A stretch of DNA of 28,543 nt, taken from the NCBI RefSeq assembly GCF_000013985.1, contig NC_008036.1, positions 1-28,543 on the forward strand, written 5' to 3'. The DNA is from Sphingopyxis alaskensis RB2256. GTDB taxonomy: Bacteria > Pseudomonadota > Alphaproteobacteria > Sphingomonadales > Sphingomonadaceae. Position numbers and translations under genes: made by a program. A model generated the notes under the pieces. That model saw only the letters and a list, made by a program, of their open reading frames with translations, did not search any database and was not told where the DNA came from. Positions within the stretch are counted from its first letter, which is position 1, and every line of letters begins with the position of its first letter. Positions 4,689 through 24,275 of this stretch are shown here, in pieces.

Positions 4689-4717
4689 GTCGGCAATCCA
4701 GTTACACCGCAAACGCC

Positions 4718-4745
4718 ACGTCGGCACGACGTATAAGCGCGCCCT
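4718..4745 (+). other. oriT: Origin of transfer (oriT), IncQ/Ti-like
   Basis: Positions 4718-4732 form a perfect 6+3+6 inverted repeat (ACGTCG, gca, CGACGT). After one base comes TAAGCGCGCCCT (4734-4745). That differs at one position from TAAGTGCGCCCT, which I recall as the nic region of RSF1010 and related MOBQ origins. An inverted repeat immediately 5' of nic is the standard arrangement for this family, and the site lies in the gap between traA and traC, where Ti plasmids carry their oriT. The nick would be expected within the GCGCCC part. The evidence is sequence similarity plus position, with no functional proof. Confidence 0.75.
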
Positions 4746-7091: not shown

Positions 7092-7146
7092 CATCGGGCG
7101 CGACTGGCGGTAGCAGTTGCGGTCCGCTGCATGTTGGGAGGTGCAT

Positions 7147-8589
7147 TTGGCCGGGGAATTGACGATCCTTGTTGTTTCGCGCGACGATGCGCTGATCAGC
7201 GCGGCGCGAGCTGGGCTGAAGGAGCGGGCTGATTACCGGCTGGTCATAGCTGAGGACGGCAAGACCGCGCAGGAGCGGCTCAACGACATCGAAGTACACC
7301 TCTTGCTTTGCGATCTCGACACGGTGGACGATGCCCAGGACAACATACTGACACGCGCGCGCGTTTCACATCCGGGGGTTTGTCGAATTGCGGTCTCTTC
7401 GCAGAATCGCGACGATGCTGACAGCGAGGCAGTCCGTCGCTCTGCCGCCTATCTCTATCTGTTCAAGCCGCTAACACCTCATCAGATTGCGCTCATGGTA
7501 AAGCGCAGCCTGGAAATGAACGAACTTTCGCGACGGCATCGCCTTCTTTCGCGTGAACTGAAGATTTCGGTCGATGACCAGATCTTCGAGGAACGCGTGG
7601 ATATGTCAGTCAAGGGCGGTTACTCGCAATTCGAGAAGCTCGTTTATGCCAGCGCCAAGATGGCTGATTTGATCGTTGAAGCGCGCAAGGCGGCAGTCAC
7701 CGATCTGCCAGTCCTCATCGAGGGCGACACCGGGACGGGCAAGGAACTGCTGGCGCGAGCGATCCATTTCAACTCTACACGTGTCGATTCTCCGATCCAT
7801 GTACAGAATTGCGGCGGTATGCTGGATTCCACGCTCCATTCCGAATTGTTCGGACATGTGCGGGGGGCTTACACCGGAGCCACCGCAGACCGGCTTGGGC
7901 TGTTCCGTGCCGCAGATGGCGGAACGGTGTTCCTTGACGAAATTTCAGATGTTTCGCCGAGTTTCCAGGTCAGCCTGCTGCGCTTCCTTCAGAATGGCGA
8001 GGTTAAACCGCTAGGGTCGGACAAGTTGTTGCATGCCAATGTCCGGATCATTGCGGCGTCGAACCGGCCGCTTCTGGAAATGGTCGAAAAAGGCGAATTT
8101 CGGCGTGACCTGTATTATCGTCTCAAGGGCTTTTCGCTGAGCATCCCGGCGCTGCGGGACAGGCGGGAGGATATTCCTGTTCTTACAGATTTCTTCATCG
8201 AGAAATATGCCGGAGTAGTCGGCCGCAGGGTAATTGGCATTACGCAGAGTGCGCTCGACAGGCTGCAGGCTCATCAATACCCAGGCAATGTCCGGGAACT
8301 GGAAAGCGAGATCAGGCGCGCGGTGGCGCTGGCTGAAAATGGTGGTTACATTACAGAGCGTAACCTCTCGGCCGTGTTTGATAATCTCGTTGTTGCCCCG
8401 GATGTCGGCCAGCAGGCGGAAATGGAAGGCGGCACACTCAAGGAGATGGTCGAGCGTCTGGAGCAACGGGTCGTGGTAGGTGCACTCACCCGTTTTCGCT
8501 GGAACCAGAGCAAGGCTGCCGACGCGCTGGGGCTATCCCGCGTGGGCCTGGCCAACAAGATCAAGCGCTACGGTCTGCATGATGGCTGA
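7147..8589 (+). CDS. NtrC-family sigma-54-dependent response regulator (HupR/HoxA-like)
   Basis: A 480-aa three-domain activator. The receiver domain spans about 5-120, with a likely phospho-acceptor Asp56 in LLLCDLD and the conserved Lys107 in LFKPLT. The AAA+ sigma-54 domain has Walker A GDTGTGKE (193-200) and the sigma-54 contact loop GAYTGA (240-245). A C-terminal Fis-type helix-turn-helix (NQSKAADALGLSRVGLANKIKRYG) ends the protein. Such proteins bind upstream sites and make sigma-54 polymerase open the promoter. HupR and HoxA do this for uptake hydrogenases, which fits a sigma-54 promoter 400 bp downstream. I chose the TTG at 7147, which has GGGAGG six bases upstream. An in-frame TTG at 7117 and a GTG at 7141 are less well placed. 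No histidine kinase is encoded nearby. In HupR/HoxA the unphosphorylated form is often the active one; whether that holds here is unknown. Confidence 0.88.
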   Translation: MAGELTILVVSRDDALISAARAGLKERADYRLVIAEDGKTAQERLNDIEVHLLLCDLDTVDDAQDNILTRARVSHPGVCRIAVSSQNRDDADSEAVRRSAAYLYLFKPLTPHQIALMVKRSLEMNELSRRHRLLSRELKISVDDQIFEERVDMSVKGGYSQFEKLVYASAKMADLIVEARKAAVTDLPVLIEGDTGTGKELLARAIHFNSTRVDSPIHVQNCGGMLDSTLHSELFGHVRGAYTGATADRLGLFRAADGGTVFLDEISDVSPSFQVSLLRFLQNGEVKPLGSDKLLHANVRIIAASNRPLLEMVEKGEFRRDLYYRLKGFSLSIPALRDRREDIPVLTDFFIEKYAGVVGRRVIGITQSALDRLQAHQYPGNVRELESEIRRAVALAENGGYITERNLSAVFDNLVVAPDVGQQAEMEGGTLKEMVERLEQRVVVGALTRFRWNQSKAADALGLSRVGLANKIKRYGLHDG

Positions 8590-8636
8590 CGGTGGTCTCA
8601 TGCAGGAGCAGGAGCAGGAACGGGAGTGGCAGTGAA

Positions 8637-8852
8637 ATGGCAGACCGGGACAATGTTGTTCGCTTGCGTTTTTCCCGCATGCCCTATCCGGGGCAAGAGG
8701 CGCCACAAGACCTCGGCTCGACAAAGCTGACGCGAACAGCGGGTGCAGGACTTTCTGGTGCGCATGGCCATTGGTGCGGGCGCTGCAAAGGCATCTGGTA
8801 TTCGGCGTTCGGCGAAGTTGAATGCCCGGTCTGCGGCAACCGGCACGGCTAG
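8637..8852 (+). CDS. Small zinc-ribbon (rubredoxin-like) protein
   Basis: A 71-aa protein with a disordered, Arg-rich N-terminus and a C-terminal metal-binding knuckle: CGRC (Cys47, Cys50) and CPVC (Cys63, Cys66). The spacing Cx2C-x12-Cx2C is the one I recall for the zinc domain of E. coli HypA, and the HypA of this locus lacks that domain. The start at 8637 is supported by GGGAG upstream; an extended frame from 8592 is not. It lies 47 bp after the activator and before the hydrogenase promoter. It may be a detached HypA zinc module, a rubredoxin-like electron carrier, or a DNA/RNA-binding ribbon. The Cys motif is certain, the role is not. Confidence 0.75.
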   Translation: MADRDNVVRLRFSRMPYPGQEAPQDLGSTKLTRTAGAGLSGAHGHWCGRCKGIWYSAFGEVECPVCGNRHG

Positions 8853-9080: not shown

Positions 9081-10043
9081 ATGGCGAATCTGTTGTGGCT
9101 TCAAGGCGGTGCGTGCTCTGGCAACACCATGTCCTTCCTTAATGCCGAGGAGCCCAGCGCATGCGATCTGGTGACGGATTTTGGCATCAATGTCCTTTGG
9201 CATCCCTCGCTTGGCCTCGAGCTGGGTGAGAATGTCAAAGTCATGATGGAAAAGTGCCTTTCCGGCGAAATTCCGCTCGACATTTTCGTGTTCGAAGGCA
9301 GCGTCATCAATGCGCCCAACGGTACGGGCGAATGGAATCGCTTCTGCGGTCGTCCGATGAAAGACTGGGTGGCAGATCTTTCTGCCAAGGCGCAATTTGT
9401 TGTGGCTATTGGCGATTGCGCCACCTGGGGCGGCATCCCGGCAACGGCTCCCAATCCGTCTGAAAGCGAAGGCTTGCAGTTCCTCAAGCGGGCCAAGGGT
9501 GGAGCGCTGGGCGAAGGCTTCACGTCTCAGGCTGGCCTTCCGGTCATCAATATTCCCGGCTGCCCCGCTCACCCTGACTGGGTAACGCAGATCCTTGTCG
9601 CCGTTGCCACGGGCCGCGCGGGCGACCTGACGCTGGACGAATTCCATCGGCCAAAGACCTTCTTCTCCAGCTTCACGCAGACGGGCTGCACCCGCAACAT
9701 GCACTTCGCCTACAAGGTCTCGACCACGGCCTTCGGTCAGCGCAAGGGCTGCCTCTATTACGATCTGGGGTGCCGCGGCCCGATGACTCACAGCCCCTGC
9801 AACCGCATTCTGTGGAACCGCGTTTCGTCCAAGACCCGTGCTGGCATGCCCTGCCTTGGCTGTACGGAACCGGAATTCCCCTTCTTCGATCTCGCCCCAG
9901 GAACTGTCTTCAAGACCCAGACTGTGATGGGCGTGCCGAAGGATCTTCCGCTAGGGGTTGATCGTACCGGCTACGTCAAGCTCACAGCTGCCGCCAAGGG
10001 TGCGGCTCCGGCGTGGGCCGAAGAGGATATCTTCGTCGTCTGA
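9081..10043 (+). CDS. hupS: [NiFe]-hydrogenase small subunit, group 2a-like
   Basis: A 320-aa iron-sulfur subunit that takes electrons from the active site of the large subunit. It starts MANLLWLQGGACSGN with no twin-arginine signal peptide, so the enzyme stays in the cytoplasm, as in group 2 enzymes. Cluster ligands: proximal Cys12, Cys113 (GDCATWGG) and Cys161 (PGCPAHP); distal Cys203, Cys224 and Cys231; medial Cys240, Cys258 and Cys261 (PCLGC). The position of the second N-terminal Cys of classical subunits is Asn15. The usual distal-cluster His (HxxC before Cys203) is replaced: the residue three before Cys203 is Gln200. This agrees with what I recall of the Huc enzyme of mycobacteria, which carries [3Fe-4S] clusters. 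The ATG at 9081 has GGGAG eight bases upstream. It is the first gene after the sigma-54 promoter. Confidence 0.95.
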   Translation: MANLLWLQGGACSGNTMSFLNAEEPSACDLVTDFGINVLWHPSLGLELGENVKVMMEKCLSGEIPLDIFVFEGSVINAPNGTGEWNRFCGRPMKDWVADLSAKAQFVVAIGDCATWGGIPATAPNPSESEGLQFLKRAKGGALGEGFTSQAGLPVINIPGCPAHPDWVTQILVAVATGRAGDLTLDEFHRPKTFFSSFTQTGCTRNMHFAYKVSTTAFGQRKGCLYYDLGCRGPMTHSPCNRILWNRVSSKTRAGMPCLGCTEPEFPFFDLAPGTVFKTQTVMGVPKDLPLGVDRTGYVKLTAAAKGAAPAWAEEDIFVV

Positions 10044-10104: not shown

Positions 10105-11700
10105 ATGGCAGCTACACAAACCCTCGACATCTCGCCCGTTGGCCGGGTGGAGGGCGACCTTGATGTCCGTGTCGACATCGAGAACGGGATCGTCACCAAT
10201 GCATGGACGCAAGCGGAAATGTTCCGCGGCTTCGAGGTCATCCTCAAGAACAAGGATCCACAGGCCGGGCTTGTCGTTACGCCTCGTGCTTGCGGAATCT
10301 GCGGTGCCTCGCACCTTTCCTGTGCGGCATGGGCGCTTGACACTGCCTGGGGTACGACCGTTCCGCGCAACGCCATTCTCGCCCGCAACCTCGGGCAAAT
10401 CGTCGAAACCATCCAGTCGATCCCGCGCCATCATTATGGCCTGTTCATGATCGACTACACCAACCAGAACTATGCGAAGTCCAAGTTCTACGAAGAAGCG
10501 GTGAAGCGCTATGCGCCCTTCACAGGGACCTCCTATGAAGCGGGTGTGACCATTTCGGGCCGCCCGGTAGAAATCTATGCCCTGCTTGGCGGGCAGTGGC
10601 CGCATTCTTCCTTCATGGTTCCCGGCGGCGTGATGTGCGCCCCGACTCTGACCGACGTGACCCGCGCATGGTCGATCCTGGAGCATTTCCGCCGCAACTG
10701 GATCGAACCGCTGTTCCTTGGATGCTCGATGGAGCGCTATGAGGAAATCAGGACTTATGACGACCTGATGGCGTGGCTGGACGAAAAGCCCGAGCATGCC
10801 AATTCGGACCTTGGCATGTTCATCCGCATGTCGCTCGATATCGGGCTCGACAAATATGGCAAGGGCCACGGCAAGTTCATCTCCTGGGGCTATCTCCCCC
10901 ATGAAGACCGTTACAACAATCCGACGATTGAAGGTCGCAATGGCGCGGTCATCATGAAGTCGGGCGTGTTCGATGGTGCCAGCGACACTTTCAAGCTCAT
11001 GGATCAGGGCAACACCCGTGAGGACATGCAGCATGCCTGGTACGATGAAGGTGACGGCCTCCATCCGTTCGACCGGACAACCAATCCGGTAGCCAAGAAC
11101 GACATCGACACAGACGGAAAGTACAGCTGGTCAACCGCTGTCCGCCACAGCGACAACGGACGTCTTGAAGCAGGGCCGCTGGCTCGCCAGCTGATAGCAG
11201 GTGGCGATCACGGCGAGAGTTGGCAGCACAGTGATGGCCTGGTGCTCGACATGTATCGCAAGCTGGGCGGCGCTTCGATCTACCTGCGTCACTTCGCCCG
11301 TCTGCACGAACTGTGCAAACTCTATCGGGAATCCGAGCGAATTCTGCGCGAGTTCCGCCTCAATGACGAGTGGTACATCAAGCCGACCGAGCGCGATGGC
11401 CAGGGATGGGGCGCGACCGAGGCTGCGCGCGGTGCCTTGTGCCACTGGATCGACGTGCGCGATGGCAAAATCCACAACTACCAGATCATTGCTCCGACCA
11501 CCTGGAACGTTGGTCCGCGGGCGAGCAATGGCGAGTTGGGGCCGATCGAGGAGGCACTCATCGGCACCCCGATTGCAAATACTTCCGATCCGGTTGAAGT
11601 CGGGCATGTTTGCCGTTCCTACGACAGCTGCCTGGTTTGCACGGTCCACGCACACGATGCGAAAACGGGCGAGGAACTGGCCCGCTTCCGCACAGCTTGA
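10105..11700 (+). CDS. hupL: [NiFe]-hydrogenase large (catalytic) subunit, group 2a-like
   Basis: A 531-aa subunit that carries the NiFe(CN)2CO site and splits H2. The N-terminal nickel motif is RACGICGASH (Cys63, Cys66, His70). The C-terminal motif is DSCLVCTVH (Cys509, Cys512, His515), followed by a 16-residue extension ending in RFRTA. That extension should be removed after His515 by the endopeptidase encoded downstream. The presence of a cleavable tail argues against an H2-sensing (group 2b) subunit, which normally lacks one. The usual Pro after Asp in the second motif is Ser508. The start at 10105 has GGGAG eight bases upstream (10093-10097); an in-frame start at 10057 would lack a ribosome binding site. 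It lies 61 bp after hupS. A strong hairpin follows the stop codon. Confidence 0.95.
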   Translation: MAATQTLDISPVGRVEGDLDVRVDIENGIVTNAWTQAEMFRGFEVILKNKDPQAGLVVTPRACGICGASHLSCAAWALDTAWGTTVPRNAILARNLGQIVETIQSIPRHHYGLFMIDYTNQNYAKSKFYEEAVKRYAPFTGTSYEAGVTISGRPVEIYALLGGQWPHSSFMVPGGVMCAPTLTDVTRAWSILEHFRRNWIEPLFLGCSMERYEEIRTYDDLMAWLDEKPEHANSDLGMFIRMSLDIGLDKYGKGHGKFISWGYLPHEDRYNNPTIEGRNGAVIMKSGVFDGASDTFKLMDQGNTREDMQHAWYDEGDGLHPFDRTTNPVAKNDIDTDGKYSWSTAVRHSDNGRLEAGPLARQLIAGGDHGESWQHSDGLVLDMYRKLGGASIYLRHFARLHELCKLYRESERILREFRLNDEWYIKPTERDGQGWGATEAARGALCHWIDVRDGKIHNYQIIAPTTWNVGPRASNGELGPIEEALIGTPIANTSDPVEVGHVCRSYDSCLVCTVHAHDAKTGEELARFRTA

Positions 11701-11746: not shown

Positions 11747-11789
11747 AGGCTGCGAATAGAATAACAACCCGTTGGGAGAATGCGCCGGA

Positions 11790-12170
11790 ATGACTGGCGA
11801 CAACACCGAATTGCAGCGCCAGCGCGAATGGCTCTTGTCCCGGTATGGCGTGGTGCCTTCGGAGGCCGATCATGCGACACTTCTGCGCATGATCGAGGAT
11901 TATCTCAACGAAGGGCTGGAAACGCAGGTAGAGCCATTCCCCGAAACGGACCGCGAATTTTCAGGTATTCTTGATGAGTTAAGGGCGCTCGACCCGGATG
12001 ATCTAAGGGCCAAGCTCGACATTTCCGGCTGGTTGCTTCGCCCATACGGGGCAGACGAGATGCGCTGTCAGGAATGCATGTATTATCTGGTCCACAGGCG
12101 CTGGTGTGACCTGCCGGAGCTAAGCTTGCCCGCCGAGCCCGAATGGTGGTGCCGCCTCTGGCGCATTTGA
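11790..12170 (+). CDS. Hydrogenase-linked four-Cys protein, HiPIP-like (paralogue A)
   Basis: A 126-aa protein with a helical, charged N-terminal part and a C-terminal motif with exactly four cysteines: Cys93, Cys96, Cys106 and Cys121 (Cx2C-x9-C-x14-C), ending EPEWWCRLWRI. The order CxxC, C, then an aromatic-flanked C near the C-terminus recalls high-potential iron-sulfur proteins. A [4Fe-4S] carrier is therefore plausible, though no signal peptide is present and typical HiPIPs are periplasmic. The next gene is a paralogue with identical Cys spacing. The start at 11790 is the best-placed ATG after GGGAG (11774-11778), although the spacing is long (11 nt). An in-frame TTG at 11772 overlaps that site. 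I cannot name the family. Confidence 0.75.
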   Translation: MTGDNTELQRQREWLLSRYGVVPSEADHATLLRMIEDYLNEGLETQVEPFPETDREFSGILDELRALDPDDLRAKLDISGWLLRPYGADEMRCQECMYYLVHRRWCDLPELSLPAEPEWWCRLWRI

Positions 12171-12181
12171 AGGAGTTGCGC

Positions 12182-12499
12182 ATGGCCACTGATGCAGACG
12201 AAACCCTACGGCAGGAAATCGCGGGTCTTCTGGCTGGCGGCCTTGAAACCGAAGTCTTCCCCAGAGCCGAAGACTCTGCGCAGGTCAACGCGATCGTGTC
12301 CCGCCTGCAATCGGAAGGCAAGGATCTTGCTTCCAAGCTTGTGGTTGCTGGCTTTACAGATCACACCATCACGGCTGATGAACTGGAACAGCCCTGCGAA
12401 ACCTGCATGTATTACCTTATCAAGCGCCGCTTCTGTGATCTGCCTGAACTTATGCTGCCGGTTGAACCCGAGTGGTCGTGCCGCCTGTGGCGAATTTAG
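12182..12499 (+). CDS. Hydrogenase-linked four-Cys protein, HiPIP-like (paralogue B)
   Basis: A 105-aa protein that shares with its upstream neighbour the C-terminal block CMYYL, RR-x-C-DLPEL, LP-x-EPEW and CRLWRI. The four cysteines (72, 75, 85, 100) have the same spacing. The N-terminal parts have diverged, although a short GLETEV/GLETQV element is shared. This is an ancient tandem duplication, and the pair may form a heterodimer or two steps of an electron chain. The start at 12182 follows GGAG (12172-12175), 11 bp after the previous stop. The end overlaps the endopeptidase gene. A HiPIP-like [4Fe-4S] cluster is inferred from the Cys pattern alone; a zinc-binding structural role is the alternative. 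Confidence 0.77.
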   Translation: MATDADETLRQEIAGLLAGGLETEVFPRAEDSAQVNAIVSRLQSEGKDLASKLVVAGFTDHTITADELEQPCETCMYYLIKRRFCDLPELMLPVEPEWSCRLWRI

Positions 12500-12972
12500 A
12501 CGCACCTGCCACTGCGATCATTGGCTGCGGCAATATCAATCGCGGTGATGACGGGGCTGGTCCGGCCGTCATCGCCCGGCTTGCTGCTGAAGATTTGCCG
12601 TCTGATGTAGAGCTGCTGGATGCCGGCACTGATGGGATGGCAGTGATGTACCGTGCGCGCGGGGCGCAGCAGCTTATCGTGATCGATGCAAGGGAGCCCG
12701 AAGGCAAGCCGGGGGCTATCTACGAGGTTCCCGGCGATGTGCTGGCGGCAGAACCGGTCCATGGCGTGGGTCTTCACGCGTTCCGTTGGGACAACGCCCT
12801 GTTTGTGGGACGCAAGATCTTTGGCGATGACTTCCCTTCTGATGTGCAAGTCTATCTGATCGAAGCGCAGACGCTGGACTATGCCACCGAGCTTTCCGGG
12901 CCGGTAGTTGCAGCGGTCGAGAAGGTGGCGGCCAAGATCGCGGCGCGGCTCGTCATCGCCCCCGAGGCTTAA
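12472..12972 (+). CDS. hupD: Hydrogenase maturation endopeptidase (HupD/HyaD family)
   Basis: A 166-aa protease that removes the C-terminal tail of the large subunit once nickel has been inserted. The family motif IIGCGNINRGDDGAGP lies near the N-terminus, with the metal-reading acidic residues in RGDDG and the DAGTDG segment. A conserved histidine lies in HGVGLH (about residue 97-101). The length is normal for the family. The start is one of three in-frame GTG codons (12472, 12478, 12487), none with a clear ribosome binding site. All overlap the end of the preceding gene, so translation is probably coupled. The orphan gene follows after 3 bp. Confidence 0.9.
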   Translation: MVVPPVANLDAPATAIIGCGNINRGDDGAGPAVIARLAAEDLPSDVELLDAGTDGMAVMYRARGAQQLIVIDAREPEGKPGAIYEVPGDVLAAEPVHGVGLHAFRWDNALFVGRKIFGDDFPSDVQVYLIEAQTLDYATELSGPVVAAVEKVAAKIAARLVIAPEA

Positions 12973-14839: not shown

Positions 14840-15706
14840 ATGTCAGAGGCGGATCCCCAGCGGCCCGAGCCAACGCTTTCCCGCCTGCTGGGGGATCTGA
14901 CCGCGCTGGAAGCGCTGGCAGAGAACTGGGAAGAAGGTGCACGTAATGGTGCGCAGGCACGGGCAGCGGCGCTTGATGCGCTCAATGCCGAAGCCTTCCG
15001 TCGCCTGATCCGTTCGCTGCGTGAGCTGCCCGGCGCAGCCGAGGCCTTGCGTCAGGCGGCGGCGGACGAGGTGGTCTATTGCGTGCTCCGCCGCCATGGC
15101 ATCCTCAAAGCCAGCCTGTTCGAGCGGGTCGATGCCGCGCTTGCCACGGTGCGCCCGACGCTGGCCGGCCATGGCGGCGATGCCGAACTGGTCGAAGTAT
15201 CTGGCGACAAGGCAGTGGTGCGTTTTCTGGGGGCCTGTGATGGATGTCCCGCTTCGGCGCTGACTTTCTATGCCGGGGTAAAGAAAGCAATCACAGAGCA
15301 AGTGCCCGAAATCCGCGAAGTCAAGCAGGCCAAGGGGCTGGGCGGCGGCGGTGGTGATACGGTGCATTTCACTTCTCCCTTCGCCGCGCATGAGCATGAA
15401 GGCTGGCTCCATGCTCTGCAACTAACTGAATTGCCCGACGGGACGACTTCTGTCCTGGAGCTGGAAGGGCGTTCGCTGCTGCTTTCGCGATTCGGGGACA
15501 AGGTTACCTGTTTCGAGAACGCCTGTGCGCATCTTGGCATGCCGATGGACCAGGCGGAAATTGCCGATGGCTTCATCACCTGCCCGCATCATGGTTTCCG
15601 TTATGCGCTCGAAAGCGGTGAATGCCTGACGGCACCAGAAGTGCAATTGCAACCCCATGCCGTACGCGTCCGAGGGGATGCCATCGAACTGAGGCTGACG
15701 CGATGA
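14840..15706 (+). CDS. NifU-domain/Rieske [2Fe-2S] fusion protein
   Basis: A 288-aa protein in three parts. The N-terminus (1-95) is helical and of unknown fold. A NifU C-terminal-like domain follows (about 96-165) with CDGC (Cys133, Cys136). The Rieske domain (about 190-285) has CAH (Cys229, His231) and CPHH (Cys248, His251), which together bind a [2Fe-2S] cluster. Such NifU-Rieske proteins are, as I recall, a recurrent companion of group 2a hydrogenases and are proposed to accept or pass on their electrons; the NifU part may carry or deliver a cluster. The start at 14840 lies 4 bp after the preceding stop. The stop overlaps the NHL gene by an ATGA. No signal peptide is present. Confidence 0.9.
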   Translation: MSEADPQRPEPTLSRLLGDLTALEALAENWEEGARNGAQARAAALDALNAEAFRRLIRSLRELPGAAEALRQAAADEVVYCVLRRHGILKASLFERVDAALATVRPTLAGHGGDAELVEVSGDKAVVRFLGACDGCPASALTFYAGVKKAITEQVPEIREVKQAKGLGGGGGDTVHFTSPFAAHEHEGWLHALQLTELPDGTTSVLELEGRSLLLSRFGDKVTCFENACAHLGMPMDQAEIADGFITCPHHGFRYALESGECLTAPEVQLQPHAVRVRGDAIELRLTR

Positions 15707-16881
15707 AAGTATCGCTCGCGCCCTCCTTCCGTCCGGTCAAAGCCGAAGGGACGCAAATCGCGGGGGCACCGCTGCTGGAAGAAGGCGGGCCGCGCGTGGT
15801 ACTCGGCTGGTCGCCGGGCGACGTTGCAACGCCGCTATCTCCCGCCGCTGCAAGCCTGTTCGGGCCGCGCGGTGTCTGCCTGCATCCTGATGGAACATTG
15901 TGGGTCGCGGATACCGGGCATCATCGGCTGCTGGGATGGCGAAAGATCCCACAATCGGACAATGAGCCTGCCGATATTCTGATCGGCCAACCGAGTTTCT
16001 GCCGCGAAGGCCGCAACGCCAAGGGGCCTCCCGGTCCTGCTACGCTCAATGTGCCGACTGGCCTGTGCGCATGGCGCGGCGGATTGGCCGTGGCTGATGC
16101 CTGGAACCACCGCGTGCTGATCTGGCGCGAAGTGCCAACAGGCAATGGCCAGCCAGCCGATCTGGTGCTGGGTCAGGAGGATAGTGAATCCGTTCTGGCC
16201 AATCGCGGCGCTGACCGTCCAACCTCGGCCAGCCTGCACTGGCCCTATGGCGTGGCCGAAGTGGCCGGCAGACTGGTCGTATGCGACAGCGGCAACCGCC
16301 GCCTGCTCGTTTGGAGCGATCCTTCAGAAACCGGCCAGCCAGCCGATCTGGTGCTGGGCCAGCATGACTTCTCTACGCGCGACGAGAACGCGGGCGGCGA
16401 AGTCACGGCGATGTCGATGCGGTGGCCGCATGGAGCCTGCTGGTGGAATGGCCATCTCGCGCTGGCAGACAGCGGCAACAACCGTGTGATGCTGTGGCGT
16501 GGATTTCCAGAGCACAATGGCTCGCCTTGCGACGCAATTCTGGGACAGCGGGACACCGCACATTGCGATCACAATATGTCCTCCTACTATCCCAGCGCGG
16601 CCAGTGTGAACATGCCCTATGCGACGGTTGAAGCCGGTGGCCAGCTGATTGTGGCCGATACCGCGAACTCGCGTCTGCTCGGCTGGGCAGACAGCGCCAC
16701 CGGCATTGCGGCGAACCAGCTTTGTGGTCAGCCGGACTTCGCCAGCAAGGGCGACAATCGCTGGGGCATGCCCGAACGAGACAGCCTGTGCTGGCCCTAT
16801 GGCCTGTCAGCGCTGGGTGATCTGGTGGCGGTTGCCGATAGCGGCAACAATCGCGTCCTTTTGTGGAATCTGGCGCGGTGA
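15703..16881 (+). CDS. NHL-repeat beta-propeller protein of the hydrogenase locus
   Basis: A 392-aa protein with repeated NHL-type units. Examples are PRGVCLHPDGTLWVADTGHHRLLGW, cut here to its core GTLWVADTGHHR, then LAVADAWNHRVLIW, LVVCDSGNRRLLVW, LALADSGNNRVMLW, LIVADTANSRLLGW and VAVADSGNNRVLLW. Six units cover nearly the whole chain and should close a six-bladed propeller, a shape used for protein-protein contact. No enzyme motif is visible. NHL proteins occur in group 2a hydrogenase clusters, so an assembly or docking role is likely. The start at 15703 overlaps the stop of the Rieske gene (ATGA); the stop overlaps the GTG of hypF (GTGA). Confidence 0.87.
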   Translation: MKVSLAPSFRPVKAEGTQIAGAPLLEEGGPRVVLGWSPGDVATPLSPAAASLFGPRGVCLHPDGTLWVADTGHHRLLGWRKIPQSDNEPADILIGQPSFCREGRNAKGPPGPATLNVPTGLCAWRGGLAVADAWNHRVLIWREVPTGNGQPADLVLGQEDSESVLANRGADRPTSASLHWPYGVAEVAGRLVVCDSGNRRLLVWSDPSETGQPADLVLGQHDFSTRDENAGGEVTAMSMRWPHGACWWNGHLALADSGNNRVMLWRGFPEHNGSPCDAILGQRDTAHCDHNMSSYYPSAASVNMPYATVEAGGQLIVADTANSRLLGWADSATGIAANQLCGQPDFASKGDNRWGMPERDSLCWPYGLSALGDLVAVADSGNNRVLLWNLAR

Positions 16882-19244
16882 CCGGCGAACGCCTTTTGGT
16901 ACGCGGCCAGGTGCAGGGCGTAGGCTTCCGGCCCACTGTATGGCGGGTTGCACGCGAGCTTGAGCTAACCGGTGATGTGCGCAACACCAGCAGCGGGGTT
17001 GAAATTCGCCTTTGGGGCGAAGCGGTGTCGCGCTTTGAAAGCGAACTGCGCGCGGCGCTGCCTGCATTGGCGCGGATTGATGCGATAGAACGCGTGGCAA
17101 TTGATGCTGTGCGGCCCGAGAGCTTCGTTATCGGTGCATCGGAAGGTGACGGCATGCGCGGGGCTGTAACGCCCGATGCGGCAATCTGCTCCGCCTGCCT
17201 TGAAGAAGTGCGCGATCCTTTCGAGCGTCGCTATCGCTACCCCTTTACCAATTGTACCGAATGCGGGCCGCGTTTCTCGATTATCGAGACCGGCCCCTAT
17301 GATCGTGCCCGCACGACCATGAGAGGTTTCGCGATGTGCCCGGAATGCGGAGAGCAATATTCCGATCCGACAGACCGGCGCTTCCATGCCCAACCTATCG
17401 CGTGCCATGTTTGCGGACCGCGCGCATGGATCGAGCGCCTTGGCCCCGGTACTGTTAATCACGAAGCCTTTTCGATGATGGACGACGTGGATGCCGCAGG
17501 CGGCATGCTGATGAACGGGCATATCGTCGCCATCAAGGGGCTTGGCGGCTTTCATCTCGCCTGTGATGCCACCCGCGCGGAGGTGGTGGCCGATCTGCGT
17601 ATGCGAAAACGGCGCAGGGGCAAGGCCTTTGCCCTGATGGCGCGCGATCTGGACGTTATCCGCCGTTATGCCGAATTCTCGGATCAGGAAGCCGAACTGC
17701 TGGCATCGCCTGAAGCGCCGATCGTGTTGCTGCGCGCATCGGGGGAGCCGCTGGCTGAAGCGGTGGCGCCGGGGCTGGACCGGATCGGCTTCATGCTGCC
17801 TCACACCCCGCTGCATCACCTGCTGTTGCGGCGGATGAAGCGCCCGGTGGTGATGACTTCGGGCAATCTCTCAGGCCGCCCGCAATGTACCTCTAACGAG
17901 CAGGCCCGTGCCGAACTGGAAGGCATTGCCGAATTTGCGCTGATGCACGACCGGCACATTGCCAACCGGATCGACGACAGCGTTACGCGGGTCGATCTGG
18001 GCCGGGTCCGGCTGCTGCGCCGCGCGCGCGGCTACGCCCCCAGAGCTATCGACTTGCCCACCGGCTTTCCGCGCGACCTCTCGCTGCTGGCCATGGGTGC
18101 GGAGCTCAAGAACAGCTTCTGTCTGGTGCGCGATGGCGAAGCTGTGCTGAGCCAGCACATGGGCGATCTGGAGGATGCGGCCACCGAAGATGATGTGCGC
18201 CGCAACCTCGATCTTTATACCCAGCTCTACGACCATCAGCCAGCGGCAATCGCGGTGGACGCGCATCCCGAATATCTTTCGACCAAGCATGGGCGCGAAA
18301 TCGCGGATGGACGACCGGTGATCGCGGTACAGCATCACCACGCCCATATCGCCGCCTGTCTGGCCGAAAACGGCCGCTCGCTCGATGCCGCCCCTGCACT
18401 GGGAATTGCGCTTGACGGTCTGGGCCTGGGTGATGACGGCACGATCTGGGGCGGTGAGTTCCTGATCTGCGATTATCGCGGATACCGTCGTGCCGGGATG
18501 CTCAAGCCGGTCGCACTACCGGGTGGGACTGCGGCGATCCGCGAACCCTGGCGCAATGCCTATGCCCATTTGATGGCGCAGATGGGCTGGGCCGAATTCG
18601 CGATGAATTTCGCTGACCTGCCATTGTTTGCCCGCCTTTCCGCCATGCCGCGATCCACGATCGATGCGATGATCGCCAGCGGCACCAATAGCCCACTTTC
18701 TTCCTCATGCGGGCGGTTGTTCGATGCCGCAGCGGCGATCTGCGGTCTCGCCTGGGATCGGCAGGAATATGAAGGACAGGCAGCCATGTTGCTGGAAGCA
18801 GCAATCGATCCGGCGGCGCTGAATGAGCCGGACGATCTGGCCTATCCTTTTTCCATTCCGTTGCTGGGCGGGCGTGGGCTTCCCTATGTTGAACCGCTCG
18901 CCGTGTGGCGGGCGATGCTGGGTGACCTGCTGCTGAATACGCCGGTTGGGGTGATGTGCGCGCGGTTCCATCGCGGCCTCGCACGGTCTGTTGTGGCCAT
19001 GGCGCAGCGCCTGACCGCAGACGATGGCCCTGATACTGTGGCCCTGTCTGGCGGCTGTTTCCAGAACGCCACGCTGTTCCGCCTGGTCCATGAAGGATTG
19101 GAACAGCTGGGGCTCAACGTCCTCAGCCACTCGAGAGTGCCCGCCAATGATGGCGGTCTGGCTTTGGGGCAGGCCGCTGTGGCCATGGCCCATTTGCACG
19201 AAGCGACCGCGGAAACCGAAAATGGGAGAGAAGTATGTGCTTAG
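16878..19244 (+). CDS. hypF: Carbamoyltransferase HypF
   Basis: A 788-aa protein that converts carbamoyl phosphate into a thiocarbamate on HypE, the source of the cyanide ligands of the NiFe site. Domains in order: acylphosphatase (GQVQGVGFRPTVW, about 10-22); two zinc fingers with Cx2C pairs at 104/107, 126/129, 154/157 and 176/179; a YrdC-like nucleotide domain (GLGGFHLACDAT); and a Kae1-like carbamoyltransferase domain with HHHAHIAACL and LDGLGLGDDGTIWGGE. The length is normal. I chose the GTG at 16878 because it overlaps the NHL stop codon in a coupled GTGA; an upstream TTG at 16863 lies inside the NHL gene. The end overlaps hypC by 10 bp. Confidence 0.95.
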   Translation: MTGERLLVRGQVQGVGFRPTVWRVARELELTGDVRNTSSGVEIRLWGEAVSRFESELRAALPALARIDAIERVAIDAVRPESFVIGASEGDGMRGAVTPDAAICSACLEEVRDPFERRYRYPFTNCTECGPRFSIIETGPYDRARTTMRGFAMCPECGEQYSDPTDRRFHAQPIACHVCGPRAWIERLGPGTVNHEAFSMMDDVDAAGGMLMNGHIVAIKGLGGFHLACDATRAEVVADLRMRKRRRGKAFALMARDLDVIRRYAEFSDQEAELLASPEAPIVLLRASGEPLAEAVAPGLDRIGFMLPHTPLHHLLLRRMKRPVVMTSGNLSGRPQCTSNEQARAELEGIAEFALMHDRHIANRIDDSVTRVDLGRVRLLRRARGYAPRAIDLPTGFPRDLSLLAMGAELKNSFCLVRDGEAVLSQHMGDLEDAATEDDVRRNLDLYTQLYDHQPAAIAVDAHPEYLSTKHGREIADGRPVIAVQHHHAHIAACLAENGRSLDAAPALGIALDGLGLGDDGTIWGGEFLICDYRGYRRAGMLKPVALPGGTAAIREPWRNAYAHLMAQMGWAEFAMNFADLPLFARLSAMPRSTIDAMIASGTNSPLSSSCGRLFDAAAAICGLAWDRQEYEGQAAMLLEAAIDPAALNEPDDLAYPFSIPLLGGRGLPYVEPLAVWRAMLGDLLLNTPVGVMCARFHRGLARSVVAMAQRLTADDGPDTVALSGGCFQNATLFRLVHEGLEQLGLNVLSHSRVPANDGGLALGQAAVAMAHLHEATAETENGREVCA

Positions 19245-19531
19245 GTATTCCGGGGCAGATCGTGGAGATCACCGATGCCGGGCGCAAGCTGGGCGTGGCC
19301 AATGTCTCCGGCGTGCGGCGCCCGGTCAACCTCGCCTGCGTTATTGGCGAAGGCAGTGTCGAAGACCTGATCGGCACATGGGTGCTGATCCATGTCGGAT
19401 TTGCCATGAGCAAGATTGACGAGGATCAGGCGGCCGAAACACTGCGCATCCTGACCGAGCTGGGAGAGGCGCAGCAGGAACTTGCAGCCATGCGCGACGG
19501 CGATCGCGCGTTGGGAGACGCGCAGTGGTGA
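19235..19531 (+). CDS. hypC: Hydrogenase assembly chaperone HypC
   Basis: A 98-aa HypC/HupF-family chaperone. The functional N-terminus MCLGIPGQIVEI carries the essential Cys2 that holds the Fe(CN)2CO unit together with HypD and escorts the large-subunit precursor. The beta-barrel core (LGVANVSGVRRPVNLACV and GTWVLIHVGFAMSKID) is typical. The start lies inside the end of hypF and the stop overlaps the SIS-domain gene, so translation is coupled. Only one HypC-type gene is seen in the locus, so it presumably serves both the HypD and the HupL steps. Confidence 0.95.
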   Translation: MCLGIPGQIVEITDAGRKLGVANVSGVRRPVNLACVIGEGSVEDLIGTWVLIHVGFAMSKIDEDQAAETLRILTELGEAQQELAAMRDGDRALGDAQW

Positions 19532-20211
19532 CCACTGGCCCTGCCTTGAATGCGCTTTATCCGCATATGCGCAGAGGTGGCGAACAGCTCCGTGCCTCGG
19601 CGCAAAGCCTGCGCCATTCGGTTGAAAGCAAGGCTCGGGACCACACTGAGGTGTTCGGCAAGTTTTTTGCAGAACAGGCAGACGAACTGGTCGCCGCCGC
19701 GACCACGCTGGCCGCAAGCTATCGCCAGGGCGGACGCCTGCTGGCCATGGGCAATGGCGGATCGAGCTGTGATGCCGCGCATGTCGCGGTGGAGTTTCTC
19801 CATCCAGTGACCGCCGGAAGGCCGGCGCTGGGTGCGATCAACCTCGCGGCCGATGTCGCGATGCTGACGGCAGTCGGTAATGATGTCGGACAGGACCATG
19901 TGTTCGTGCGTCCGCTGATTGCCCACGGGCGGCACGGTGATTGCCTGATCGGCTTTTCGACCAGCGGCAATTCCGCAAACCTCATCCGGGCTTTTGCCAA
20001 GGCGCGGGAGATGGGCATTGCCACGATCGGCCTGGCGGGTGGTGACGGGGGCGAGATGGCCCGCGCCGGACTGGATCATCTGCTGGTGGTCCCAACAGGC
20101 TCGATCCACCGGGTGCAGGAATGCCACCTCGCGGCCTATCACATCCTCTGGGACCTGACCCACACGCTGCTAGCCAATGACCGGGCCGCACCGCTGGAGG
20201 CAGGCGCATGA
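19525..20211 (+). CDS. SIS-domain protein (phosphoheptose-isomerase-like) inside the hyp operon
   Basis: A 228-aa sugar-phosphate-isomerase-fold protein. Signature segments are LLAMGNGGSSCDAAHVAVEFLH, cut here to MGNGGSSCDAAH, and LIGFSTSGNSANLIRA for the phosphosugar-binding Ser/Thr loops, with HRVQECHLAAYHILWDL near the end, as in GmhA. GmhA isomerises sedoheptulose-7-phosphate for lipopolysaccharide heptose. No other heptose gene is nearby, and the gene is welded between hypC and hypD by overlaps at both ends (GTG 19525, ATGA at 20208). I recall the same placement in actinobacterial hyp operons. A role in maturation, perhaps handling a phosphorylated precursor, is possible but unproven. 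GTG 19528 is an alternative start. Confidence 0.87.
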   Translation: MVTTGPALNALYPHMRRGGEQLRASAQSLRHSVESKARDHTEVFGKFFAEQADELVAAATTLAASYRQGGRLLAMGNGGSSCDAAHVAVEFLHPVTAGRPALGAINLAADVAMLTAVGNDVGQDHVFVRPLIAHGRHGDCLIGFSTSGNSANLIRAFAKAREMGIATIGLAGGDGGEMARAGLDHLLVVPTGSIHRVQECHLAAYHILWDLTHTLLANDRAAPLEAGA

Positions 20212-21341
20212 AGTATGTCGACGAATTCCGCGATCCGGTTCGCGCCGGTGTCCTGCTCAAGGAAATCGAGGCCCTGACTGCACAGATCATGGCCGGGCGC
20301 GATCGCCCGGTCGTCATCATGGAAGTGTGCGGCGGCCACACGCATTCGATCTTCCGATACGGCATCGAGAAGATGCTTCCGCCGGAAATCGAGTTTGCCC
20401 ATGGGCCGGGCTGTCCGGTTTGCGTGTTGCCGATGGGCCGGGTCGATGATTGCGTGGAACTGGCTATGAAGCCGGAGGTGATCTTCACTACGTTTGGTGA
20501 TGCCATGCGCGTGCCGGGATCGCGGCTCAGCCTGCTAGGCGCAAAGGCCGAAGGGGCCGATGTGCGGATGGTCTATTCACCACTCGATGCCCTCGCGCTG
20601 GCCCGTGCGAACCCGGACCGCGAAGTGGTTTTCTTCGGCCTCGGCTTCGAGACGACGATGCCCTCCACAGCCCTGACAATCCTGCAGGCCCAGGCAGAAG
20701 GGATCGGCAATTTCTCGCTGTTCTGCAACCACATCACCATCATCCCCACGATCAAGGCGATCCTCGATTCACCCGATATGGGGATCGATGGCTTTCTCGG
20801 GCCGGGCCATGTCTCGATGGTCATCGGCACTGATCCCTATGACTTCATCGCACGCGACTACCACCGTCCGCTGGTGGTCGCCGGCTTCGAACCGCTCGAC
20901 GTATTGCATTCGGTTTGGATGGTGCTTCGGCAGATGGCCGAAGGCCGGGCGGAGATCGAAAACCAGTATGACCGGATTGTGCCACGCCATGGCAATGAAG
21001 CTTCGCTGGCTGCGGTTACGGAAGTATTCGAACTGCGGGAATTCTTCGAATGGCGCGGGCTGGGCTCGATTGACCATTCTGGCGTCCAGATTCGCGAGGC
21101 CTATGCGGCCTGGGATGCTGAGCGAAAATTTGCCGTTGCATCGCCTAGCATTCCGGATCCCAAGGCTTGCCAGTGCGGCGAAGTGCTGAAAGGCGCGATC
21201 AAGCCATGGCAGTGCAAGCTGTTCGGTCGGTCGTGCACACCGGAAACACCGATGGGTGCCCTGATGGTTTCGTCTGAAGGAGCATGTGCCGCCTATTATC
21301 AGTATGGCGGGATCGATGCGGTGCCGGAGCCAGCGCAATGA
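20208..21341 (+). CDS. hypD: Hydrogenase maturation scaffold HypD
   Basis: A 377-aa iron-sulfur protein that, with HypC, is the scaffold on which Fe receives CN and CO. Family motifs are present in order: EVCGGHTHSIFRYG, HGPGCPVC, FGDAMRVPGS, GLGFETTMPS, GPGHVSMVIG and VAGFEPLDVL. A C-terminal cysteine set for the [4Fe-4S] cluster follows (Cys321, 323, 336, 343 and 360 in the CQCG, PWQC, GRSC and EGAC segments). The length is normal and nothing is missing. It overlaps the SIS gene (ATGA) and ends overlapping hypE (ATGA). Confidence 0.96.
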   Translation: MKYVDEFRDPVRAGVLLKEIEALTAQIMAGRDRPVVIMEVCGGHTHSIFRYGIEKMLPPEIEFAHGPGCPVCVLPMGRVDDCVELAMKPEVIFTTFGDAMRVPGSRLSLLGAKAEGADVRMVYSPLDALALARANPDREVVFFGLGFETTMPSTALTILQAQAEGIGNFSLFCNHITIIPTIKAILDSPDMGIDGFLGPGHVSMVIGTDPYDFIARDYHRPLVVAGFEPLDVLHSVWMVLRQMAEGRAEIENQYDRIVPRHGNEASLAAVTEVFELREFFEWRGLGSIDHSGVQIREAYAAWDAERKFAVASPSIPDPKACQCGEVLKGAIKPWQCKLFGRSCTPETPMGALMVSSEGACAAYYQYGGIDAVPEPAQ

Positions 21342-22387
21342 ACGCTGTAACTCCCACTGGCAACGGACGGCTGCGAGCGGAGCGGGTGACGCTGGCGCAT
21401 GGCGGTGGCGGCAAGGCCATGCGGGATCTGATCGAGGATGTGTTTACCTCGGTTTTCGAACCCGACGGGTTGGAAGACCAGGCGCGGTTGAGCCACGAAA
21501 TGTTGGCCGTGGAGGGTGCCCGGCTGGCCTTCACCACGGACAGTTTCGTAGTGCAGCCGCTCGAGTTCCCCGGTGGCGATATCGGCAAGATTGCGGTTTG
21601 CGGCACAGTTAACGACCTTACCGTCGGCGGCGCGCAACCGCTGTGGCTGTCGGCGGCCTTTATCATTGAGGAAGGCACCGAAGTCGCCTTGCTACGCCGC
21701 GTGGCAGCGGCCATGCGTAGGGCGGCCGACGAGGCCGGTGTGCGGATCGTGACCGGCGATACCAAGGTGGTTGAGCGCGGTGCTGCCGATACGCTTTTCG
21801 TCACCACTTCCGGAGTGGGAGTCATCCCTGCTGGACGCGAACTTGCCGCGGAGAAAGTTCGCGCGGGCGATGTCGCGCTGGTCAACGGTGTATTGGGTGA
21901 TCATGGCGCCGCCATTCTGGCCGCGCGTGGAGACATGGCTTTCGAGGCGGATATTCGTTCGGATTGCCGCCCGCTCAATCACCTGATGGAAGCGGTGATC
22001 GAAGCCGCACCGGGTGTGCGCTGTGCGCGGGATGCCACCAGAGGAGGCCTGGCCAGCGCACTCAACGAAATATCGCAAGCCTCGGCCATCGGGATCGAGA
22101 TCGACGAGGCCAGATTGCCAATGAGGGCCGAGGTCAAGGGCGTGTGCGAACTGCTCGGGCTTGATCCACTCTATCTCGCCAATGAAGGGGCGCTGGTGCT
22201 GTTCGTTCCAGAGGAGCAGGCGGAAGCTGCGCTGGCAGCCATGCGCTCAACCGAGGCAGGGCGCGATGCAGCCATTATCGGGCGCGCGGCAGAGATGCGC
22301 AGCCCGCGCGTGGTCATGCATAGCCTGTTCGGCGGAAGCCGGATCGTCGACATGCTGGTCGGCGAGCAACTGCCGCGTATCTGCTGA
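21338..22387 (+). CDS. hypE: Hydrogenase maturation protein HypE
   Basis: A 349-aa PurM-like ATPase that dehydrates the carbamoyl group received from HypF to a thiocyanate on its C-terminal cysteine. The chain ends LPRIC, so the essential terminal Cys349 is intact. Other family elements are LAHGGGGKAMRDLI, FTTDSFVVQP, GGDIGKIAVCGTVNDL and CARDATRGGLASALNE. The ATG at 21338 overlaps the hypD stop codon; a longer upstream frame from 21284 lies inside hypD. The nickel transporter gene follows after 15 bp. Confidence 0.96.
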   Translation: MNAVTPTGNGRLRAERVTLAHGGGGKAMRDLIEDVFTSVFEPDGLEDQARLSHEMLAVEGARLAFTTDSFVVQPLEFPGGDIGKIAVCGTVNDLTVGGAQPLWLSAAFIIEEGTEVALLRRVAAAMRRAADEAGVRIVTGDTKVVERGAADTLFVTTSGVGVIPAGRELAAEKVRAGDVALVNGVLGDHGAAILAARGDMAFEADIRSDCRPLNHLMEAVIEAAPGVRCARDATRGGLASALNEISQASAIGIEIDEARLPMRAEVKGVCELLGLDPLYLANEGALVLFVPEEQAEAALAAMRSTEAGRDAAIIGRAAEMRSPRVVMHSLFGGSRIVDMLVGEQLPRIC

Positions 22388-22402: not shown

Positions 22403-23122
22403 ATGCAACTCTCGTTGATCGCCCTGGGTTTCCTTGCCGGAATGGGCCATGCGCTCGAACCCGATCACCTCGCCGCAGTCGGTGCCATGGCCACGGGACG
22501 GAATTCGCGCCGGTCGATGGTGCTGCGGGGTGCTGCGTGGGGGCTAGGGCATACGCTCACCCTGCTCGCGATCTGTTCTGCAGTGATCCTGCTGGGCATG
22601 GCATTGACAGGCCGCACGGCAGCCCTTCTGGAGAGCGCCGTTGGCTTCATGCTGATTCTGCTGGGGGGTGATGTACTTTGGCGGATGCGCAAGGCACGGG
22701 TGCATTTCCACCTGCACGATCATTCCGATGGCGAACGTCATTTTCATGCTCACAGCCATCTTGGCGAACGGGCGCCCCATGATGCGAGCCGCCACGAACA
22801 CTCTCACCCCCACAAGTTTCCCTTGAAAGCGCTGGCTGTCGGGCTGGTGCATGGCGCGGCAGGATCGGCTGCCCTGCTTACCCTGGCAGTCGCTTCGGTT
22901 GGTGATCCTCTGCTGGCGGTTATCTATGTCCTGCTGTTCGGAGTTGGCTCAATTGCAGGAATGGCTGCGCTCAGCTTTATCGCCTCCTGGCCGCTTGGCT
23001 ATGCAGAGCGTGTTGCCTTGCGACTTCATCGAGCGCTGAATCTGTCGTTGGCTGTGCTGGCACTTGGCCTGGGATTGCACACGATCTACGCCAACCTGTC
23101 TGGCGTGTTGGGGGCGGCCTGA
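22403..23122 (+). CDS. Nickel/cobalt transporter-like membrane protein (NicT/UreH type)
   Basis: A 239-aa membrane protein. The first helix carries HALEPDH (His16, Asp21, His22), the Hx4DH metal-recognition signature of the NiCoT and UreH-like nickel carriers. About six helices are visible, split by a large hydrophilic His-rich loop (about 95-138, with HFHLHDHS, HFHAHSH and HEHSHPH) that may gather nickel. The most likely job is nickel supply to HypA/HypB for the hydrogenase; cobalt or export functions are less likely in this setting. The start has GGGAGA upstream. The stop shares bases with the hypA start (TGATG). Confidence 0.85.
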   Translation: MQLSLIALGFLAGMGHALEPDHLAAVGAMATGRNSRRSMVLRGAAWGLGHTLTLLAICSAVILLGMALTGRTAALLESAVGFMLILLGGDVLWRMRKARVHFHLHDHSDGERHFHAHSHLGERAPHDASRHEHSHPHKFPLKALAVGLVHGAAGSAALLTLAVASVGDPLLAVIYVLLFGVGSIAGMAALSFIASWPLGYAERVALRLHRALNLSLAVLALGLGLHTIYANLSGVLGAA

Positions 23123-23364
23123 TGCACGAGCTGTCTCTTGCCCGGAATATTGTCGCCATTGTTGGTGATCACGCGCAGGGTCGGCGGGTGTCGCGTGTGC
23201 GCCTGGCAGTCGGCCCCTATGCCTGCGTAGAGCGCGAGGCGATCCGATTTTCATTCGAGGTGGCGAGCGAAGGTACGCTGCTCGAGAAGGCTGCACTCGA
23301 ATTTCTGGAAGGCGAGACCGACCAGTTCATCATCAAGGATTTCGATATGGAGGAAATGGCCTGA
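23122..23364 (+). CDS. hypA: Short HypA lacking the zinc domain
   Basis: HypA delivers nickel to the large subunit with HypB. This copy has the correct N-terminus ([14 protein letters not shown], with the nickel-binding His2) and the beta strands through [19 protein letters not shown]. It is only 80 aa, against about 113 for the family. The inserted zinc knuckle with two CxxC pairs is missing; the only cysteine is Cys35. The chain passes straight from [10 protein letters not shown] to [10 protein letters not shown], which matches the family's final strand, so this is an internal loss rather than a frameshifted end. It overlaps the transporter stop and the hypB start (ATGA-type joins), which suggests a functional gene. 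A separate protein at 8637-8852 has the missing Cys spacing. Confidence 0.88.
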
Positions 23365-24275
23365 TGTGCGGCACCTGCGGATGCACCGATCCTGACAACG
23401 AGATCGCGATGATTGACCCGGAAACCGGAAAGCGAGTGCTGCTTCGCAGCGGCGATGACCATTCCCACGATCATGACCACTCCCACGATCATGACCACTC
23501 CCACGATCACACTCATTCACACGATCATGATCATTCACACGGGCACCATCATCACCACCATCATGATCACGGGCATGACCATCACCACCACGGCGAACAA
23601 GCGGCGCGTGTATCACTGGAAACCGCCGTGCTTGACCGGAATGATCGCCAGGCGGCTCGCAACCGGGGCTGGTTCGAAGGGCGCGGTGTTGTCGCGCTCA
23701 ATCTCGTCAGTTCGCCAGGGGCTGGCAAGACGACCTTGCTCGAAACCACGATCCGGGCGCTGGAAGGAAGTCTGCCGATTGCCGTTATCGAGGGTGATCA
23801 ACAGACGGCCAATGACGCCACGCGCATTCGCGAAGCGGGGGCCCGTGCAATCCAGATCAACACTGGGGCCGGCTGTCACCTCGAAGCCGATATGGTTGCC
23901 CGCGCTGTTGAAGAACTCGCACCGAAATCCGGCTCGTTGCTGCTGATCGAGAATGTCGGCAATCTTGTTTGTCCGGCGATGTTCGATCTGGGTGAACGGA
24001 TGAAGGTCGCCGTTATCTCCACCCCGGAGGGCGAGGACAAGCCACTCAAATACCCGCACATGTTCCGCGCAGCAGAGCTGGTGTTGATCAACAAGATCGA
24101 CCTCGCCCCGCATGTTGGATTCGACGAGGCCGCATGCCGTGCAAACATCTCCGCAGTAAACCCCAATGCGCTCGTCTTGCTGGTTTCCGCCCGCACCGGT
24201 GAAGGGATGGACGCGTGGTACGATTTTCTGCGAGCAATGGCGTCAGCAGCCGCAGATGGCGGGTGCCTCATTTAG
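23364..24275 (+). CDS. hypB: Hydrogenase nickel-incorporation GTPase HypB
   Basis: A 303-aa GTPase that powers nickel insertion and stores the metal. The N-terminal high-affinity nickel motif is MCGTCGC (Cys2, Cys5, Cys7). Next comes a histidine tract with 27 His between residues 33 and 76, largely in HSHDHD units. The G domain has Walker [10 protein letters not shown] (116-124), the metal-binding CH (171-172) and Cys203, and the guanine-specificity motif NKID (243-246). The long His tract implies nickel storage as in rhizobial HypB proteins. It overlaps hypA and is the last gene of the operon; no clear Rho-independent terminator follows. Confidence 0.95.
23463..23534 (+). repeat. Four imperfect 18-bp tandem repeats coding the HypB histidine tract
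   Basis: Units at 23463-23480, 23481-23498, 23499-23516 and 23517-23534 follow the pattern TCCCACGATCATGACCAC. The first two are identical and the others diverge slightly. Each codes six residues of the HSHDHD type. The multiple of three keeps the frame, so copy number can change by slippage without breaking hypB. Confidence 0.85.

Follow-up and report, generated by a model that had tools for sequence, protein, structure and literature searches.

The window analysed here, a stretch of 28,543 bases (guanine-cytosine (GC) content 60.4%) from Sphingopyxis alaskensis RB2256, carries the structural and maturation genes of a [NiFe]-hydrogenase, among them a hypA gene whose product, a shortened nickel chaperone, is the subject of this report. 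Plasmid F of this strain is described as 28.5 kb in size, 60.4% GC and the bearer of the NiFe-hydrogenase cluster (PMC4224046), and the window, which takes up positions 1-28543 of contig C1, is probably this plasmid. The hypA open reading frame (ORF) encodes 80 amino acids (aa) beginning with MHELSLARN, and its stop codon overlaps the start of hypB. The protein scored 55.9 bits against the Pfam HypA family PF01155, whose cut-off is 28.9, with a match confined to positions 1-65 of the 112 in the model, and it missed the equivalog cut-off of TIGR00100 (55.1 versus 88.1 bits). In the alignment, M1, H2 and E3 are retained together with the stretches flanking the zinc loop on both sides, and C35 is the sole cysteine, with zero CxxC motifs. 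The Pfam match and the alignment confirm what a first-pass annotation, made from the sequence alone, had noticed: this HypA keeps His2 and the flanking strands and is without both CxxC pairs. E37 aligns with Asp40 of Helicobacter pylori HypA, a likely nickel ligand of that protein along with Met1, His2 and Glu3 (PMC5557546), and the short HypA carries the HypA nickel motif, an N-terminal MHE plus an acidic residue at the ligand position. The predicted fold, that of the alpha/beta nickel-binding domain, is confident and complete. Because the zinc loop is lacking, we file the protein as a zinc-less variant descended from HypA rather than as a canonical HypA.

Genome searches, which took in two contigs and 3,373,713 bases, detected no second HypA above the Pfam cut-off; the one other match, at 11.5 bits, fell below it. 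The possibility raised by the first-pass annotation, that a second full-length HypA in the genome might be the working copy, thus found no support. The features of the window are listed in Table 1.

Table 1. Features of the hydrogenase region in the 28,543-base window.
Feature	Position	Strand	Basis or remark
Sigma-54-dependent response-regulator type activator	7117..8589	+	
Zinc-ribbon protein, 71 aa, Cx2C-x12-Cx2C, conserved GHWCxxCxGIWY...EVECPVCGNRHG	8637..8852	+	
[NiFe]-hydrogenase small subunit (HucS)	9081..10043	+	
[NiFe]-hydrogenase large subunit (HucL)	10120..11700	+	Nearest solved structures 7uus, 7utd (Hydrogenase-2 large subunit)
Cys-motif protein, similar to ORF 12143..12499	11772..12170	+	
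Cys-motif protein, similar to ORF 11772..12170	12143..12499	+	
Hydrogenase maturation protease	12472..12972	+	TIGR00072
NifU-domain plus Rieske protein	14840..15706	+	Start inferred
HypF	16863..19244	+	Its zinc fingers are the controls in the profile comparison with the ribbon
HypC-like	19235..19531	+	Named from position and from hypC in L033, with no family search behind the name
HypD	20208..21341	+	
HypE	21338..22387	+	Start inferred
NicO-type nickel permease, His-rich loop; stop overlaps hypA start (TGATG)	22403..23122	+	PF03824, 31.2 bits
Short HypA, 80 aa, nickel-binding domain alone, zinc loop excised, Met1/His2/Glu3 and Glu37 retained	23122..23364	+	Pfam match, alignment
HypB GTPase: N-terminal CGTCGC motif, His-rich stretch, hydrophobic-x-Leu motif (RVSLE), G-domain Cys-His site	23364..24275	+	Hydrophobic-x-Leu motif after PMC3287977

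Conservation and spread of the short HypA

A single-sequence search returned 22 proteins, namely nine of 80 aa, one 61-aa fragment and twelve full-length HypAs. With an alignment of nine short HypAs as query, 4578 of 5855 candidate proteins matched at E <= 1e-8, and we examined the best 120 of these 4578, among which the names Hankyongella, Kiloniellales, Pelagibius and Rhodospirillales occur. Exactly 80 aa were counted in 117 of the 120, and a zinc loop with two CxxC motifs, or indeed any CxxC, was absent from all 120 as it is from the window protein. Across the 117 proteins of 80 aa, H2, E3 and E37 are invariant, M1 is found in 116, H17 in 113 and C35 in 112. Comparison with the Hankyongella gene gave a nonsynonymous divergence (dN) of 0.20 and a synonymous divergence (dS) of 1.44, the latter near saturation, hence a dN/dS of about 0.14, which indicates purifying selection on short hypA.

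These data bear on two ways of explaining the short form away. A sequencing or annotation artefact, to which we give virtually no credence, is refuted by other assemblies and many database entries that contain this 80-aa protein or one like it; together with the fixed length and the dN/dS, this rules out chance or assembly error. Alternatively, the short HypA could be a decaying remnant in a lineage where the enzyme no longer needs HypA for its maturation, given HypB and enough nickel. In H. pylori, activity is lost when the zinc site of HypA is mutated (PMC5557546), and a disrupted hypA or hypB can be partly overcome with nickel (PMC3287977), as this explanation would have it. The fixed 80-aa length, the invariant H2, E3 and E37, the low dN/dS and the confident, complete predicted fold are not what decay would leave, and we regard the remnant explanation as improbable.

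The short form is rare in the genome sets searched. Among 397 genomes of the phylum, 93 had a HypA match and two had the short form (S. alaskensis and G1091); a third partial match, G854:C85, was rejected as a further short HypA because the gene is cut by the contig end. In the class, 20 of 386 genomes gave a match to the profile of short HypAs (E <= 1e-10), and of these matches the S. alaskensis one alone spans positions 1-80. A single HypA was found in each of the seven short-HypA genome handles searched (two of them, G037 and G103, are apparently duplicates of one genome) and in G1091; the count does not extend to G732 or to the host chromosomes of the Octadecabacter and Roseovarius plasmids. 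Among plasmid records, 72 had a HypA-like match, five of which were read, and 35 had a similar large subunit, of which we read those from Novosphingobium, Octadecabacter, Roseovarius, Mesorhizobium, Mycobacterium, Runella, Thermus and Sulfobacillus and one of seven near-identical Bradyrhizobium records, leaving out Hymenobacter.

Several individual occurrences deserve mention. A 3.24-Mb contig from a different genus of the same family (G732:C1, L067/L068) encodes HucL and operon proteins 100% identical to those of the window, and a HypA identical to the window's also occurs in Novosphingobium pLA5, N. subterraneum and Sphingopyxis H115; these identities point to recent lateral transfer. Another identical HypA (L011) lies on a 6.9-kb contig of a metagenome-assembled genome (MAG) labelled Betaproteobacteria, probably through a binning error. 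Finally, P0009, whose longest contig is 772 bp, encodes an 80-aa HypA in the sequence style of full-length HypAs. It groups with the latter in a HypA-only tree, in which a single clade of all short forms was not rejected (p-AU 0.34), and a second, independent loss of the zinc loop is possible.

The zinc-ribbon protein and the order of events

The first-pass annotation had drawn attention to the 71-aa zinc-ribbon protein and proposed a split HypA, in which the short HypA would have its zinc module supplied in trans by the ribbon. The cysteine pattern that it described reads CGRC-x12-CPVC in the ORF, which starts from the ATG at 8637 (an alternative GTG start at 8592 would give 86 aa), and the Cys spacing equals that of the HypA zinc loop. 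In a first survey, of the genomes from which HypA loci came, five of six short-HypA genomes had the ribbon, G101 being the exception, and none of six with other HypAs did, a result that, taken alone, would favour the proposal; reading whole operons altered the picture. The ribbon is present in 10/10 short-HypA loci in which the region is covered (the window, L029, L030, L033, L048, L049, L050, L051, L068 and L108; six are distinct by concatenated sequence), and also in 6/6 alphaproteobacterial full-length-HypA loci read, with the zinc cysteines present (Bradyrhizobium L031, Mesorhizobium L032, L044, L045, L047 and L046/L072, the last with ribbon and HypA on two contigs of one genome). Short HypA without the ribbon gene, which if common was to count against the proposal, was seen in one case, a MAG (G101) whose whole bin gave no ribbon match and whose HypA contig is only 6.9 kb. 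In the stretches fetched for four loci outside the class (Mycobacterium, Runella, Thermus and Sulfobacillus; large subunit 55-57% identical), no ribbon was found. Given this distribution, the ribbon is a companion of the sigma-54 activator and the Cys-motif pair in the alphaproteobacterial version of the operon. It sits directly downstream of the activator in the alphaproteobacterial loci read, and this position (7117-8852 for the two genes together) suggests a regulatory or early-operon role.

We built a tree from HucL, HucS, HypD, HypE and HypF, from which Runella was left out for its long branch. All short-HypA rows fall into a single clade (100/100) that lies within the full-length rows and has G451 as its sister; an earlier tree, which included Runella but lacked G1091, agrees with a single short clade. 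Thus, on the loci read, the zinc domain was lost once, with the ribbon already present beforehand. The second knuckle is contracted to CxC in five of the six full-length loci and in ten of the eleven proteins P0010-P0020, and the zinc site may have relaxed before it was lost. Separately, the HypA of a Mycobacterium intracellulare plasmid (L052, 16652-16993) retains one CxxC, while its second knuckle reads CSSS and so has just one Cys; three of the four cysteines are left, and with this second knuckle its zinc site looks eroded too.

Profile comparison with hhalign aligned the knuckles of the ribbon with full-length HypA at a probability of 68.5% (26 columns) and with the zinc loop alone at 84.4%. 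The former value looked suggestive of an excised zinc loop, an identification we did not retain once the two HypF finger controls fell one above (first finger, 81.7% and 90.6%) and one below (second finger, 49.9% and 76.4%); against these two controls the scores show no specific kinship, though one may exist. The ribbon had no Pfam match above cut-off, and its model, of low confidence (pLDDT 69), had no PDB match with E <= 0.001. Its conserved GHWC, GIWY and CGNRHG are not seen in aligned HypA zinc loops, and its gene lies 14 kb away from hypA, beside the sigma-54 activator. Thus, despite the equal Cys spacing, the co-occurrence in all covered short-HypA loci and profile scores above those of the second control finger, we consider a split HypA very improbable, since the ribbon accompanies full-length HypAs as well, precedes the loss of the zinc domain and is outscored by the first control finger. 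More probably, the alphaproteobacterial operon has in the ribbon an accessory of its own, and not the missing piece of the short HypA. In a weaker form of the idea, a pre-existing ribbon may later have rendered the zinc loop dispensable.

The Cys-motif pair that travels with the ribbon consists of overlapping ORFs behind hucL, which share the motif CxxCMYYL...RRxCDLPEL...EPxWxCRLWRI. Neither had a Pfam family above cut-off. The alphaproteobacterial loci have the pair, none of the Mycobacterium, Runella, Thermus and Sulfobacillus loci compared showed it, and its members are candidate metal or Fe-S proteins. Elsewhere in the window, a large minus-strand ORF (1803-4727) resembles a candidate plasmid relaxase/helicase, a label read from the translation with no family search behind it.

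The adjacent nickel permease and a zinc-independent HypA

All ten short-HypA loci share the gene order hypE-nicO-hypA-hypB. Going by the ORF coordinates, the stop codon of nicO overlaps the start of hypA in eight of them; G1091 has one base between the two, and the Hankyongella assembly shows an interrupted nicO frame, with TGATG present. Among the full-length relatives, nicO lies downstream of hypB in Bradyrhizobium L031 and in G451 (L069), a HoxN-type transporter lies downstream of hypB in the Mesorhizobium locus, and nicO was not found in the stretch fetched for the remaining ones. The tree places the change in nicO position on the branch on which the zinc loop was lost. The HypB of the window retains the CxxCGC start, the His-rich stretch, the G-domain site and the hydrophobic-x-Leu motif, which in Archaeoglobus is required for HypA binding (PMC3287977).

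The best structure matches of HucL are 7uus and 7utd, which we take to be Huc, at 645 bits, with the next match at 211 bits, and HucL is the sole PF00374 protein found in the S. alaskensis genome. The nearness of the large subunit to these structures agrees with the published assignment of the enzyme to group 2a (Huc-type), as a plasmid-borne hydrogenase with hucL as Sala_3198 (PMC10305171) and again in PMC2974642; on the strength of the structure match and the former paper, an earlier group 1h label was dropped. In exponential growth, S. alaskensis RB2256 is reported to draw H2 down aerobically to below its atmospheric level, and in stationary phase to show negligible uptake (PMC10305171). 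Since the short HypA is the sole HypA found and H2 uptake is reported, a functioning zinc-less HypA is likely.

Taken together, we think it probable that the short HypA is a natural zinc-independent HypA, which arose by one ancestral loss and performs ordinary nickel delivery as an autonomous nickel-binding domain. The first-pass annotation had allowed for this as an alternative, that zinc is dispensable here, and the alternative is supported, as is the loss of the zinc domain itself. The ancestral HypA of the alphaproteobacterial group 2a operon would have lost its zinc loop through an in-frame deletion of about 32 codons between the last two strands, after which the remaining strands would close as a short hairpin to give an autonomous nickel-binding domain. 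Judging from conserved residues, this domain would bind Ni(II) via the Met1 amine, His2, Glu3 and Glu37, dock on HypB and deliver nickel to HucL like an ordinary HypA, and the zinc loop may have become expendable partly through the arrival of nicO immediately ahead of hypA, on the branch of the loss. If the short HypA does work as an ordinary HypA, the zinc domain would be a removable regulatory or structural add-on here.

A special form of this explanation is a direct hand-off, whereby the short HypA takes nickel from the adjacent NicO and a zinc loop that modulates nickel acquisition is unneeded. The placement of nicO between hypE and hypA in all ten loci, its different position or apparent absence from the stretch fetched in full-length relatives, and the shared branch of the two changes are what such a hand-off would predict. 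However, one branch offers no independent replication, and the gene order may reflect translational coupling alone, so that we consider the hand-off rather unlikely. A broader proposal, to which we lend slightly more weight while still holding it tentative, is that the zinc domain lies outside the nickel-delivery core of HypA, and that an H2-scavenging lineage evolved a 9-kDa minimal HypA, charged directly from the upstream-encoded NicO (and HypB), as a zinc-sparing device for nutrient-poor waters.

Several points weigh against a zinc-independent HypA that delivers nickel in the ordinary way. Single Cys mutants of the H. pylori zinc site have 9-60% of wild-type hydrogenase activity (PMC5557546), a loss which implies that the site matters in that organism. 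In various organisms, added nickel can make up in part for a disrupted hypA or hypB (PMC3287977), and H2 uptake is therefore not proof that the short HypA works. Its nickel binding and its contact with HypB are predictions, partial replacement by the ribbon is possible given that every covered short-HypA locus has one, and the new place of nicO, a single event on a single branch, may be a coincidence.

Comparison with known HypA proteins

A zinc-less HypA as the sole copy found in a reported oxidiser of atmospheric H2 amounts to a natural experiment on the purpose of the zinc domain, and as a minimal nickel chaperone the short HypA could serve structural studies and the production of hydrogenases. 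With HypA/HybF (PF01155, TIGR00100; Thermococcus kodakarensis 3a43 and 5aun, H. pylori 2kdx and 6g81) it has in common the fold of the nickel-binding domain, the MHE start, an acidic residue at the position of H. pylori Asp40 and a place in the hyp operon beside hypB, whereas it is without any zinc loop and has 80 aa instead of about 112-120. Its near relatives are the full-length HypAs of alphaproteobacterial group 2a-like operons (Bradyrhizobium, Mesorhizobium, G348, G418, G484 and G451). These operons share the ribbon, the sigma-54 activator and the Cys-motif pair with the short-HypA operon, but their HypAs keep the zinc cysteines that the short HypA has lost. The ribbon, for its part, resembles the HypA zinc loop in Cys spacing, yet has conserved residues of its own and accompanies both HypA forms. 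We found no report of a zinc-less HypA in the open-access literature, most subscription papers being beyond that search. A 2019 review ascribes a zinc site with two CXXC motifs to all HypA proteins (PMC7055735); against this universal statement, the conserved HypA family without a zinc loop appears, from its sequences, to be a new variant.
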